This document shows, piece by piece, positions 23,885 through 64,000 of a stretch of DNA of 64,000 bases. How positions within the stretch are numbered: position 1 is the first letter of the stretch; the number at the start of each line of letters is the position of its first letter. The translations under genes and the position numbers were made by a program. Source of the DNA: Candidatus Woesearchaeota archaeon (GTDB taxonomy: Archaea; Nanobdellota; Nanobdellia; Woesearchaeales; UBA9642); contig BPGB01000007.1 of assembly GCA_026002815.1 (NCBI GenBank), positions 20,354-84,353 on the forward strand, read 5' to 3'. A model generated the notes under the pieces. The model made no database searches, was not told the origin of the DNA, and saw only the letters and a list, made by a program, of their open reading frames with translations.

Positions 23885-24616
23885 ATGAATGACAAAAAAT
23901 ATGATGTTTTATTAATACCTGGAAAATATAAAAAAAGAATAATAATCCCTAGTAAAATACTAAAAGAATTGCCTAATAAGCTAATGCTTTTTTCTTCAAT
24001 ACAATTTCTACATCAATTATCAGATATACAAAAACAATTGGAATCACAAGGCAAAACGATAATTACATCTAAGTCAAGAAACTACCTATATGAAGGATTA
24101 ATAACAGATAAAGGACAGCTTCTTGGATGTAATATGGAAAAATTTACAGCAAAAGTAGAATTTGATGCATTTCTTTACATAGGCGACGGTGTCTTTCATC
24201 CAAAAGCCCTTCTTGTAAACAATGAAAAAAATGTATACTGTTACGATCCTAAGATAGAAAAATTATCTGTCCTTGATAAAAAAATACATTTAGAATATTC
24301 AAAAAGAATAAAAGGTTCCAAACTAAAATTTTTGAATTCAAAAAACATCGGAATATTAATGACAACAAAAATAGGACAAGGAAGCCCTAAGAGAGCAATG
24401 ATGTTAAAAGAGAAAATAATGCAAAAATGGCCTGATAAGAAGATATTCTTATTCTACGCAAATGAGATAAATTTCTCTGAACTTGAAAACTTTAATTTTA
24501 TAGATATATACATTAATGTTGCCTGTTCTAGAATTGGTCATGATGATTTCTCAAGAAGCGAAAAAACAATAATAAATATTTCAGATGTGGAATCGCTAAT
24601 AAAAGAATTTCAATAA
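23885..24616 (+). CDS. dph2: Diphthamide synthase Dph2, domains 2 and 3 (split gene)
   Basis: 243 residues matching the second and third domains of archaeal Dph2, the radical-SAM-like enzyme that transfers 3-amino-3-carboxypropyl to a histidine of EF2. Recognisable blocks are FSSIQFLHQLSDIQK, QLLGCNMEKF with C82, YIGDGVFHPKALLV, GILMTTKIGQGSPKRA and INVACSRIGHDDFS with C214. These are two of the three cysteines that bind the Fe-S cluster. Domain 1 with the first cysteine is missing here and is found at 63229-63495. A TATA-like ATTTTTAAAT lies about 30 bases before the ATG, so the mRNA is probably leaderless. Confidence 0.85.
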   Translation: MNDKKYDVLLIPGKYKKRIIIPSKILKELPNKLMLFSSIQFLHQLSDIQKQLESQGKTIITSKSRNYLYEGLITDKGQLLGCNMEKFTAKVEFDAFLYIGDGVFHPKALLVNNEKNVYCYDPKIEKLSVLDKKIHLEYSKRIKGSKLKFLNSKNIGILMTTKIGQGSPKRAMMLKEKIMQKWPDKKIFLFYANEINFSELENFNFIDIYINVACSRIGHDDFSRSEKTIINISDVESLIKEFQ

Positions 24617-58660: not shown

Positions 58661-60928
58661 TTATTTAAGGTCTGCTTCTTTTTTCTTTTCTGAATTTCTA
58701 AAGTATTCTCTTCTCTTTTCGACCTCTGCTTTTTCTGCATCATCTTTTGGTATCTTTTCAGTATACCTGCATTTTGGAAAACCTGAACATCCAAGAAACT
58801 GTCCATATACGCTTTTTCTTACCACTAATGGTTTCCCACATTTTGGACAAGTAACCTCTGTTTTTCCAGTTTCTATTGCTTTTATTTCTTTAAGAACTTT
58901 TTTGTCATTTGTTTTCTTGCTTGGGCATTCTGGATTTATGCATAATTCTCTAGTATTTTTACCTGCTAGTACTTTTACAATTGGAAACTTACATTGTTCG
59001 CAAATTTTATCTGTTGATTTTTATTTTATATCCTGGCATATTTAGTATTGTTTTGCATTCTTCATTATCACATGCTATGAATTTCCTTTTTAATTTTCTA
59101 GAATAAATCATTTTTAAGGTTCCTTGTTCGCATTTTGGACATTTTCCAACATAACTTTCTGTTTCTAAATGTTGTTTATAAGTTTGAGTGAGTTTCTTTT
59201 CCTATGCTTTTCTCATTTTTCTTAAATTTTTCAAGTATTTTTATTAATGCTTTTTCCGCTTCTTTCAAAACTTTTTCCTCTGTTAATTTCTTCTCCCTTA
59301 TTCTTTCCATTTCTATTTCAAAATGTCTTGTTAATTTTTTCATCAAGAATTTCTGGAGCGAACTTTTCTAATGTTTCAACTGTTTGCATTCCTAGTTCTG
59401 TTGCCTCTATTGACTCATTTTTTATATAATTCCTCTCGTATAGTGAATCTATTATTGATGCTCTTGTTGCTTTTGTTCCTAGATTCCTTTTTTCTAATTC
59501 TTTTATTATTGATGCTGGCGTATATCTTTTTGGTGGTTGAGTCTGCTTATCATGTTTTATTACTTCTTTGATTATGAATAGGTCATTATTTTTACATTTT
59601 GGCAGTTCTTTTTCTTCTAACTGAACATATGGCTTATATAATTCATGCCAGCCAGCTATTTTTGTTCTTGTCCCTTTTGTAATGAATATTTCTGATTCTA
59701 TGTCTATGTATATAGTTATTGTTTCTCTTTTTGCATCATCTCCGAAACATGCCAGGAATCTTTTTACTATTAAATCATATATTTTTGCATTCTTTTCTGA
59801 TAACTTAGGTATAATTCCTGTTGGATATATTGCGGGATGTGCTGGATCTGTTTTTTTACCTTCAGAAGGTTTTAATGCTTGTTTTTTTAATAAATCCTTT
59901 GCACTAATATCATATTTTGATAATTGTTCTATTACTTTTCTAAAATTAATGTTGGGCAATTTTTGAGAGGAAGTCCTTGGGTAAGATATATATCCAGAAC
60001 TGTAAAGATCTTGTGCGATATCCAATGTTTGTTTTGGTTTTATGCCGAATACTCTGTATGCCTCTGTTTGTAGTGTTGTTAAATCAAACGGGTATGGTGC
60101 TTTTTTGTGTCGTTTCTGTTGATTGAACTCTTGTTATTTTTCCATTTTTTCCTTGAATTTTCTTTAATATTTCCTTTGCTTCTTTTTCATCTTTGAATCG
60201 TTCCTTTTGATGCCATGCTTCAATCTCTGTATCTTTCAGCATACCTTTTACCGATAACTCCCAGTAGGGTTCTGGTTTAAACGCGTTTATTTCTTTCTCT
60301 CTATCGACTATTAATTTTAATGCTGGTCCTTGGACTCTTCCAGAACTTAATATTTTGAACATTCCTGCATTTTTTATAGCGTTTGTTAACGCCCTGGATA
60401 AGTTTATTCCATACATCCAGTCTAAGAAATGTCTTGTTTCTCCGGCATATGCTTGACCCCAATCAAGAGTCTTTGAATTTATTTTTATATGCCTCAATTA
60501 TATCTTGTTTTGTTAATGTTGAAAATTTCATTCTTGCAGCATCTTTCTGCTTACATATGAATCTTATTACGTTAAGTCCTATCACTTCTCCCTCTATATC
60601 GTAATCTGTTGCTACAGTATATTCTTTTGCTTCTTTTGATAATTTTTTTAATGCTGTGAGGTATTTTTTTGAGAAATCGTTTTTTATAACTTCATAGTTT
60701 GGTTTCCACTCAAGTTCAAAAACAGGATACTTGAACGATTTTTCTTTTTCAGCAACTGTATATAAGTGTCCTACCGCACATCCTACTAGTATATTCTTAT
60801 TATTATGTTGATATCTTATAATATGGTACGCTATTTATTGATTCCTTAACTATTTTTCCTTCTGCTAATGCTTGTGCAATCATCTTTGCAGCATTTGGTT
60901 TTTCTGTAATTATGAGTTCATATGTCAT
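58661..60928 (-). CDS. topA: DNA topoisomerase I (type IA), multiple single-base shifts
   Basis: About 755 residues when repaired. The TOPRIM start (MTYELIITEKPNAAKMIAQA), ATDYDIEGEVIGLNVIRFIC, RALTNAIKNAGMFKILSSGR, active-site GYISYPRTSS and C-terminal zinc fingers (VTCPKCGKPLVVRKSVYGQF, GCSGFPKCRYTE) are all recognisable. The frame changes about six times (near 60835, 60490, 60103, 59337, 59200 and 59030), two of them in T6 runs. No domain is missing. This density exceeds that of any other gene here and may reflect poor local coverage; pseudogenisation is possible but less likely. Confidence 0.85.
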
Positions 60929-61298
60929 TTTCTCGACGTAAAAATCTTGTTTCATCAATTATTTTTTTTATAGAAACGATTAATTACTATATAAAAATTT
61001 CCTTTTGATGAAAAATTTTTTTAATTTTATCGACGAGAAGAAGTATTAAAAAAAGAATTTTATAAAATTCATAAATTCATGAAAAATGTGTTTATAACAT
61101 AAAAATCAAATAAGTATAAATAATCGTATATCAAAATAAGTATAATTAAAATTTAATTATGTAATAATAAATGATTATATATTAATTATATTAATTATAT
61201 TAATTAATTATATAATATTATAGATGATGTGCTTTGTTGTAAAAATTATAAGTATACTGACATTTTATATGAAATATTTTTTTATAATAAATAACTTT
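60929..61298. other. Gene-free A+T-rich spacer
   Basis: 370 bases between topoisomerase I and the small zinc protein gene. Sequence is dominated by ATTAATTATATTAATT-type strings. No coding frame with a ribosome site, hairpin or repeat array stands out. It holds at least one TATA-like motif for topoisomerase I, at about 60961-60985 on the minus strand. Confidence 0.5.
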
Positions 61299-62736: not shown

Positions 62737-63129
62737 ATGTTAGAAACTAAAATTTCAGGATGCGCAATAATAAATGATGAAAAAATACTTTTATTGCATA
62801 AAAAGAAAAAAAATTATTACGAATTTCCAGGCGGGAAGATAGAATTAGGAGAGAACAGAAGAGGAACAGCCAAACGGGAAACAAAAGAAGAAATTGGCTG
62901 TGTCGTTGATTTAAGGGAATACTTTGGACCATATATCTTTAATAATAATGGCGTAAAAATAAGTCATGTATATATTGCAGAGATAATCTCTGGAACGCCT
63001 AAAATAATCGAAAGAAAAAAATTTGATAAAATAAAATATATACCAATAAGAAAATATCATAAGTATAAGCTTGCACCAAATGTTAAAATGTTCCTTAAAG
63101 AATACCTTAATTATATTAAAGAAATATAA
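62737..63129 (+). CDS. NUDIX hydrolase
   Basis: 130 residues with a complete Nudix box: G33-x5-E39-x7-REUxEExG (GKIELGENRRGTAK then RETKEEIG at 47-54). The upstream EFPGGK and the strand IINDEKILLLHKKK are typical. Substrate is likely a nucleoside diphosphate derivative; family cannot be narrowed. It ends ~100 bases before the Dph2 N-terminal gene on the other strand. Confidence 0.9.
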   Translation: MLETKISGCAIINDEKILLLHKKKKNYYEFPGGKIELGENRRGTAKRETKEEIGCVVDLREYFGPYIFNNNGVKISHVYIAEIISGTPKIIERKKFDKIKYIPIRKYHKYKLAPNVKMFLKEYLNYIKEI

Positions 63130-63228: not shown

Positions 63229-63495
63229 TCAATGACCAAACTGAATTAACATGTCAATGTCATTGTCTTTACTGTTTAACAATTCTGGAATATCACACTT
63301 CCCATAGCAAGAATTTAACCAGAAGAATATTTCTGGAGCATCCTCTTTCATCTCTTTTTGTATGTACTCCTGTATCTCTATAGCTCTAGGTTTTAATCCT
63401 TCGCCCAATTGTATTAGAATTTTTTTTGATTTGCGCTTCTTTATTTCCTGCACTACTTTGTCAAGCTCAAGATCATAATCCTGATTTATCATCAT
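63229..63495 (-). CDS. dph2: Diphthamide synthase Dph2, domain 1 (split gene)
   Basis: 88 residues matching the first domain of archaeal Dph2: KKILIQLGEGLKPRAIEIQE, then SCYGKCDIPELL with C67 (the first Fe-S ligand, in the family YGxCD motif) and DMLIQFGH ending at the domain boundary where full-length Dph2 continues GHS. It stops with TGA there and 100 bases later meets the NUDIX gene on the other strand, so there is no room for the rest. The missing part is at 23885-24616. The ATG overlaps the S3Ae stop by four bases (ATGA). Confidence 0.85.
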   Translation of the reverse strand: MMINQDYDLELDKVVQEIKKRKSKKILIQLGEGLKPRAIEIQEYIQKEMKEDAPEIFFWLNSCYGKCDIPELLNSKDNDIDMLIQFGH

Positions 63496-64000
63496 TCTTC
63501 CCTTTCGGAACCATCATTTTCAGAATCTTCTGTGTATTCTTCTGAATCCTCTCCTGATTGATCTGATTCCGAGTATTGATCTTCAGAATCAATAATTTCA
63601 TCAGGTTGCTCTTTATTTTTCTTAGAATTTTTCTCTTGCAATTCTGACTCTTCTGTTTTTCCCTCTTTTTCTGCTCTTTCAATTGCTTAATCTTAAGAAT
63701 TTCTTCTTCCTCTATGCTTTCCTTTTTCTTCTTCATTTCCAAATGCATCATTCTTATCTCAAATGTTCTTAGAGGATATGTCTTATGAAGCAAATCTTTT
63801 ACATCCTTCTGAAATTTTCCAGCAACTAAATCATTTATTAATTGCTCAAAACTTATTTTGTTTATTAATTCCTTGCAAGCTGCCTACAATCTTTTATTAA
63901 AGCAGAACGCACTGAACCCTTTGTTAGACTATTTGTTATCATTAAAGGCTTTATTCTTACTAATTTTTCATCTGATGTTCTTACTACAAAGCTGTCGCTC
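63492..64000 (-). CDS. rps3ae: 30S ribosomal protein S3Ae (N-terminus outside window), two shifts
   Basis: C-terminal ~170 residues of S3Ae. SDSFVVRTSDEKLVRIKPLM, the NSLTKGSVRSALIKDC helix, FEQLINDLVAGKFQKDVKD and HKTYPLRTFEIRMMHLEM match the family. The frame breaks near 63870 and again near 63685. Repairing the second gives a long acidic tail (SEDQYSESDQSGEDSEEY...) ending at 63492, which is unusual for S3Ae. The right part lies beyond the window. Confidence 0.85.

Follow-up and report, generated by a model that had tools for sequence, protein, structure and literature searches.

Introduction

The diphthamide modification of elongation factor 2 (EF-2) is begun by Dph2, an iron-sulfur enzyme. 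Can such an enzyme be made from two polypeptides, with the ligands of one cluster divided between them? This question is raised by a short gene at the end of a stretch of 64,000 nucleotides from a Candidatus Woesearchaeota archaeon (assembly GCA_026002815.1, contig BPGB01000007.1, positions 20,354 to 84,353), hereafter referred to as the window, to which the coordinates below apply. The gene encodes 88 residues related to the beginning of Dph2, while the remainder of the enzyme is encoded by a second gene about 39 kb away. Based on sequence comparison, the products of these two separate genes probably assemble after translation into one Dph2 unit, which would hold one 4Fe-4S cluster and catalyse the initial diphthamide step on EF-2.

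Split genes for this enzyme are already on record. DPH2 is listed as split in the nanoarchaeon Nst1, with genes Nst 222 and 440 (Podar et al. 2013, PMC3655853, Table 1), and Dph1/2 is reported as split in some Parvarchaeota, Pacearchaeota, Woesearchaeota and Altiarchaeota (Dombrowski et al. 2019, PMC6349945, crediting Narrowe et al. 2018). A preliminary description of the window had presented the arrangement as new, a claim that these two reports of 2013 and 2019 overtake. The case of Nst1 resembles the present one in having two separate Dph2 genes in a member of Nanoarchaeota, and the report of 2019 concerns, in its passage on Dph1/2, the same lineage and the same phenomenon. Here, however, the split site is placed in the loop after an FGH motif in domain 1 and the pieces are traced in 279 genomes, whereas the passages of Podar et al. 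on the Nst1 genes give no site. The locus thus adds another case to a split gene already known, and the comparative evidence that one Dph2 is made from two chains is good. What is contributed here, without any claim that it is unpublished, is the placement of the split site, together with the counts and the pattern of replacement.

Two genes for complementary parts of Dph2

The two pieces, termed the N-piece and the C-piece, and the open reading frame (ORF) next to the former are as follows.

63229..63495, minus strand: dph2 N-piece, 88 amino acids (aa), domain 1 as far as the FGH motif, including cluster cysteine C67 (GKCD); ORF, family profiles, PDB match, AlphaFold2 (AF2) model
23885..24616, plus strand: dph2 C-piece, 243 aa, domains 2 and 3 preceded by the last strand of domain 1, cysteines C82 and C214; ORF, family profiles, PDB match
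62737..63129, plus strand: ORF facing the N-piece, which closes off a continuation of dph2; ORF list

The N-piece runs from an ATG at 63495 to a TGA stop at 63229, and its product ends in DMLIQFGH. It matches the NCBIfam profile TIGR00322 over positions 1-79 with 58.8 bits (cut-off 35) and TIGR03682 over positions 2-61 of 308. The Pfam profile PF01866 gives the N-piece alone 28.9 bits, under its cut-off of 33.2. In a search of PDB sequences, the solved Dph2 chain 6bxm was matched with an E-value of 4e-9. Judged by these matches, the N-piece is homologous to the N-terminal part of Dph2. The C-piece is an intact ORF on the opposite strand and is matched by PF01866 with 128 bits (profile positions 82-293), by TIGR00322 with 131.5 bits (cut-off 35) and by TIGR03682 over positions 73-297. 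Its E-values against solved Dph2 chains range from 1e-22 to 4e-17. Along the profile, therefore, both pieces show the homology that defines archaeal Dph2 (arCOG04112, TIGR03682, PF01866), and each taken singly scores below the TIGR03682 cut-off of 202.8. What is missing from the usual definition is the single polypeptide, as the three domains are not together on one chain but on two genes 39 kb apart.

The separate encoding of a domain 1 gene, as proposed in the preliminary description, is thereby borne out by the 88-aa ORF with its profile and PDB matches and by the rest of the enzyme at 23885-24616. Likewise, the remainder of dph2 cannot directly follow the N-piece, because the plus-strand ORF 62737-63129, which we take from a motif to be NUDIX-like, lies only 99 bases beyond its stop. 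A complete dph2 elsewhere in the genome, against which the proposal was to be checked, was not found in a search of the whole draft, which is 82% complete (1.70 Mb, 26 contigs, 5.8% contamination); the only two Dph2 matches were the N-piece and the C-piece. As in the split-gene enzymes of Nanoarchaeota, the halves lie apart, relatives share the split site and no full copy was found in the draft.

The cluster cysteines can be followed across both pieces. Alignment of the pieces with Pyrococcus Dph2 (3lzc), which the preliminary description had advised, pairs the N-piece cysteine C67 with position 95 of the 3lzc chain and the C-piece cysteines C82 and C214 with positions 199 and 323, counted along the alignments. 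With a constant offset of 36 these are Cys59, Cys163 and Cys287, the cluster ligands of Pyrococcus horikoshii Dph2 (PhDph2) according to the passages of PMC11048331 on that enzyme. The equivalents of all three cysteines are therefore present, one on the 88-aa piece and two on the 243-aa piece, in agreement with the earlier proposal that the Fe-S ligands may come from two polypeptides. All three are invariant in alignments of close relatives (65 and 64 sequences). Moreover, the G, C and D of the GxCD motif are invariant across 52 genomes, while a cysteine four residues upstream is not kept. Within the genus, nonsynonymous divergence (pN) is 0.13-0.19 for the N-piece and 0.21-0.24 for the C-piece against synonymous divergence (pS) of 0.73-0.88, with synonymous sites near saturation. 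At the protein level, then, the genus has conserved the two pieces.

Position of the split

Fifteen one-gene Dph2 proteins from this phylum read like FGHAPFxKxDFPILYVEARY in the corresponding region. The N-piece ends in the loop after FGH, and the strand resembling ILYVEARY opens the C-piece, here as YDVLLIPGKY. C-pieces of relatives mostly begin at the matching point, typically with MKxLFIEAxY, where the one-gene counterpart is like FPILYVEARY. On this comparison a single loop within domain 1 contains the cut, and the last strand of the domain starts the C-piece. The earlier statement that the N-piece is exactly domain 1 thus stands for its YGxCD-type cysteine and its stop at FGH, but not for the last strand, which lies on the C-piece.

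The AF2 model of the N-piece (predicted local distance difference test score, pLDDT, of 77) has three helices and three strands, and in the model of the isolated C-piece the first 22 residues form neither strand nor helix. The two models correspond to complementary parts of the solved Dph2 chains. Furthermore, the site is shared widely. GxCD is kept in every one of the 52 N-pieces fetched, which come from this genome and 51 relatives, and each ends shortly behind [FWY]GH, with a tail of at most 11 residues in 51 of them and of 36 residues in one. A database search, whose length window admitted only proteins of about 48-154 aa, returned 88 homologues of 79-149 aa. A chance ORF is excluded by these 88 short homologues together with the common end point of the 52 N-pieces. 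Six of the 88 bear only the NCBI name hypothetical protein, while JGI names many others Dph1/Dph2-like. Surveys of diphthamide genes in DPANN can therefore miscount, because the N-piece is under the Pfam cut-off and some homologues are named hypothetical protein.

The halves lie close together in 19 relatives that were inspected (genomes are denoted by G numbers below, G000 being the present one). The N-piece ends in GW in 15 of these. In nine, the C-piece start picked by script is no more than 10 bases from the stop of the N-piece; in G035, G106 and G079 a start right after the stop exists that the script passed over, and the remaining picks lie 14 to 1168 bases away, that in G015 not being a start codon. 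The stop between close halves is TAA, TAG or TGA, and in five genomes (G105, G097, G106, G079 and G035) the halves are in frame with a single stop between them. From these sequences, the tight pairs look like cases of coupled re-initiation, against a recoded stop. In tight pairs (L055, L149, L150, L185, L188, L191, L192 and others), the tail codons of the N-piece are also purine-rich, as if forming a ribosome-binding site.

Distribution and proposed replacement

The same split in related genomes, which the preliminary description had suggested looking for, was found. Among the relatives, one found under a name is Candidatus Woesearchaeota archaeon UBA12459. In a close set of 60 genomes, G000 included, 47 hold both pieces, one holds a one-gene Dph2, six only an N-piece and six only a C-piece. 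The pieces are separate matches in 46 of the 47, although in two of these contig ends interrupt the C-piece; the remaining genome, G035, has the in-frame pair with one stop. Across a phylum sample of 279 genomes, 272 have a Dph2 match: 24 one-gene, four in-frame pairs with a stop between, 34 with a single piece and 210 others with at least two matches, a composition of one N-piece and one C-piece being confirmed among the matches listed or fetched. The N-piece profile matches 255 of the 279 genomes, including the 24 one-gene genomes, and hence 231 of the 255 genomes that are not one-gene.

One-gene Dph2 and the separate halves exclude each other almost completely. No separate piece is present in 23 of the 24 one-gene genomes (Fisher p 1e-19 for one-gene against separate N-piece, uncorrected for relatedness), which is expected if the two halves together equal one Dph2. 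The families f21, f60, f80, f83, f85, f92 and f96 hold both states, and in each the one-gene members are without separate halves; in family f84 the only member that is not one-gene, G221, has no Dph2 match at all. Two genomes carry additional copies. G112 has, on a single contig (G112:C1; L153, L154 and L181), a one-gene Dph2 as well as the two halves, whose cysteines are kept, and G004 has two different C-pieces (L020 on G004:C17 and L146 on G004:C16) with one N-piece match.

Quick trees separate the two states. In a tree of the N and C regions with 64 rows, 15 one-gene rows lie on one side of a branch with support 98, and nine adjacent-type rows on one side of another with support 99. A C-region tree of 85 rows, with three solved Dph2 chains as outgroup and two long-branch rows dropped, groups 68 split rows (support 99) and 14 one-gene rows (support 99), with root support 84, and requires one change between the one-gene and split states. 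The split Dph2 is shared within the group and is likely an old feature of it. The one-gene copies of this order (G031, G087, G112 and G149) nest among copies of other orders, which suggests lateral replacement by one-gene Dph2. Additionally, G003, of the window's own genus, has an adjacent-type pair (L093) that may have moved laterally as a unit, since it groups with other families in the tree.

Diphthamide pathway

The rest of the pathway is widely retained. In the close set, Dph5 is present in 56 of 60 genomes, the Dph6 family in 52 and EF-2 above its curated cut-off in 54. The target loop LHED(A/S/T)IHRG is found at all 31 EF-2 loci examined, namely those of G000 and of the 30 relatives whose loci the EF-2 search returned. 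G000 itself has Dph5, a Dph6-family protein and an EF-2 in two frames with LHEDAIHRG, and so holds the other expected members of the pathway. The Dph6-family domain lies in open frames of about 600-790 residues in many relatives (e.g. G004:C8, G009:C5 and G016:C8, near 700 aa), compared with 231 residues in G000. In those relatives it may be fused to something else.

Proposed assembly and alternatives

In the proposed two-chain Dph2, the 88-residue piece would give the first cluster cysteine and the 243-residue piece the other two, so that the ligands of one cluster would come from two chains. The beginning of the C-piece, YDVLLIPGKY, would add a further strand to the three-stranded sheet of the N-piece, and the chains would be held together through the completion of one domain. 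The Pyrococcus horikoshii Dph2 homodimer (3lzc, 3lzd, 6bxk and 6bxl), to which both pieces are linked by sequence matches and aligned cluster cysteines, consists of one kind of chain, whereas here there are two, with domain 1 divided between them; the usual homodimer would then become a dimer of two-chain units. The yeast Dph1-Dph2 heterodimer is similar in that two gene products form one diphthamide enzyme. According to the passages of PMC11048331 that describe it, however, each yeast subunit has its own cluster, while here the predicted ligands of one cluster are shared by two chains.

Two points weigh against the two-chain Dph2. The fold match of the N-piece model to solved Dph2 is weak, and single-piece genomes make up 12 of 60 in the close set and 34 of 279 in the phylum sample; together they lower our confidence by a hair. 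The latter figure might also suggest that the N-piece is a decaying pseudogene, with diphthamide lost or made otherwise, and the score of the window's N-piece under the Pfam cut-off is in line with such decay. This is hard to credit, given the low pN against near-saturated pS, the invariant GxCD in 52 genomes and the retention of Dph5, the Dph6 family and the EF-2 loop in most or all genomes examined. An assembly artefact, in which one gene was parted by a mis-join or indel errors, would suit the frame breaks in other genes of this assembly (S3Ae, EF-2 and topoisomerase I) and the start of the N-piece only about 0.5 kb from the contig end. Yet the independent contigs of relatives show the same split with one end site in all 52 N-pieces fetched, 88 database proteins have the short length, and in G015, a single contig with a completeness rating of 100%, the two pieces form separate frames, which leaves this explanation the least credible of all.

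More serious, though still improbable, is the idea that the C-piece acts as the enzyme by itself, using a two-cysteine cluster site or a ligand from elsewhere, and that the N-piece has a separate role, for example at the ribosome. The six of 60 genomes in which the C-piece stands by itself (although G027 among them has an N-piece profile match) and the linkage of the N-piece to ribosomal protein S3Ae in this genus would fit it. S3Ae, however, is found at only eight of 52 N-piece loci, the ligand cysteine is kept in all 52 N-pieces, and both pieces are jointly absent from 23 of 24 one-gene genomes, which is unexpected for a separate role. A full-length chain could also still be made, by readthrough of the stop codon in adjacent pairs or by joining in trans, as the five in-frame relatives allow. 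In those pairs, however, a possible ATG or GTG start lies within a codon or two of the stop, the codons before it are purine-rich as for a ribosome-binding site, and the stop varies between TAA and TAG from pair to pair. The present pieces, moreover, are 39 kb apart on opposite strands. Such a chain is very improbable.

The history of the two-chain Dph2 may be sketched from the tree as one gene fission early in the group, after which the halves moved apart and, later still, some lineages replaced them with a one-gene Dph2. With somewhat better than even confidence, a broader picture can be proposed: a single ancient fission in a Rossmann-like domain would have given an obligate two-chain Dph2 across most of the class; cluster formation would need both chains, so that their assembly would gate diphthamide synthesis; and the exit would be through a one-gene Dph2 with both halves dropped, G112 being caught with all three genes. 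Solved archaeal Dph2 carries its three cluster cysteines on one chain, and the present case would be a natural split enzyme, kept over most of the class and swapped as a unit. Since it could be expressed as two parts, it would allow direct tests of how the cluster is assembled and what domain 1 contributes.

Neighbouring genes and frame breaks

The window ends with contig C7, and the N-piece is preceded there by a truncated gene.

63473..64000 (approximate), minus strand: ribosomal protein S3Ae, with a disrupted frame and truncated at the contig end, upstream of the N-piece; ORFs and frames of relatives
63492..63495, minus strand: ATGA, in which the start codon of the N-piece overlaps the stop codon of the S3Ae frame that encodes the acidic tail; read from the sequence, conditional on the S3Ae frameshift

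Three core genes are split into adjacent frames in this assembly: S3Ae at 63473-64000, topoisomerase I at 59318-60958 and EF-2 at G000:C4:85365-87510. S3Ae is in one frame in G001 and G002, and the topoisomerase I frame of G001 has at least 667 residues. Together with the 54 of 60 genomes that have EF-2 above the cut-off, these frames suggest indel errors in this assembly, and the break in S3Ae is likely a sequencing error. The ATGA overlap, taken earlier as proof of separate expression, loses its force because it exists in only one of the two frames of the disrupted S3Ae and depends on this break. The S3Ae at the contig end is the only S3Ae match found in the genome and is under the family cut-off. 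The position of the N-piece behind S3Ae, also pointed out earlier, is real here and in G001 and G002 but not general, with S3Ae within the fetched stretch at the eight loci mentioned above; the linkage is local.
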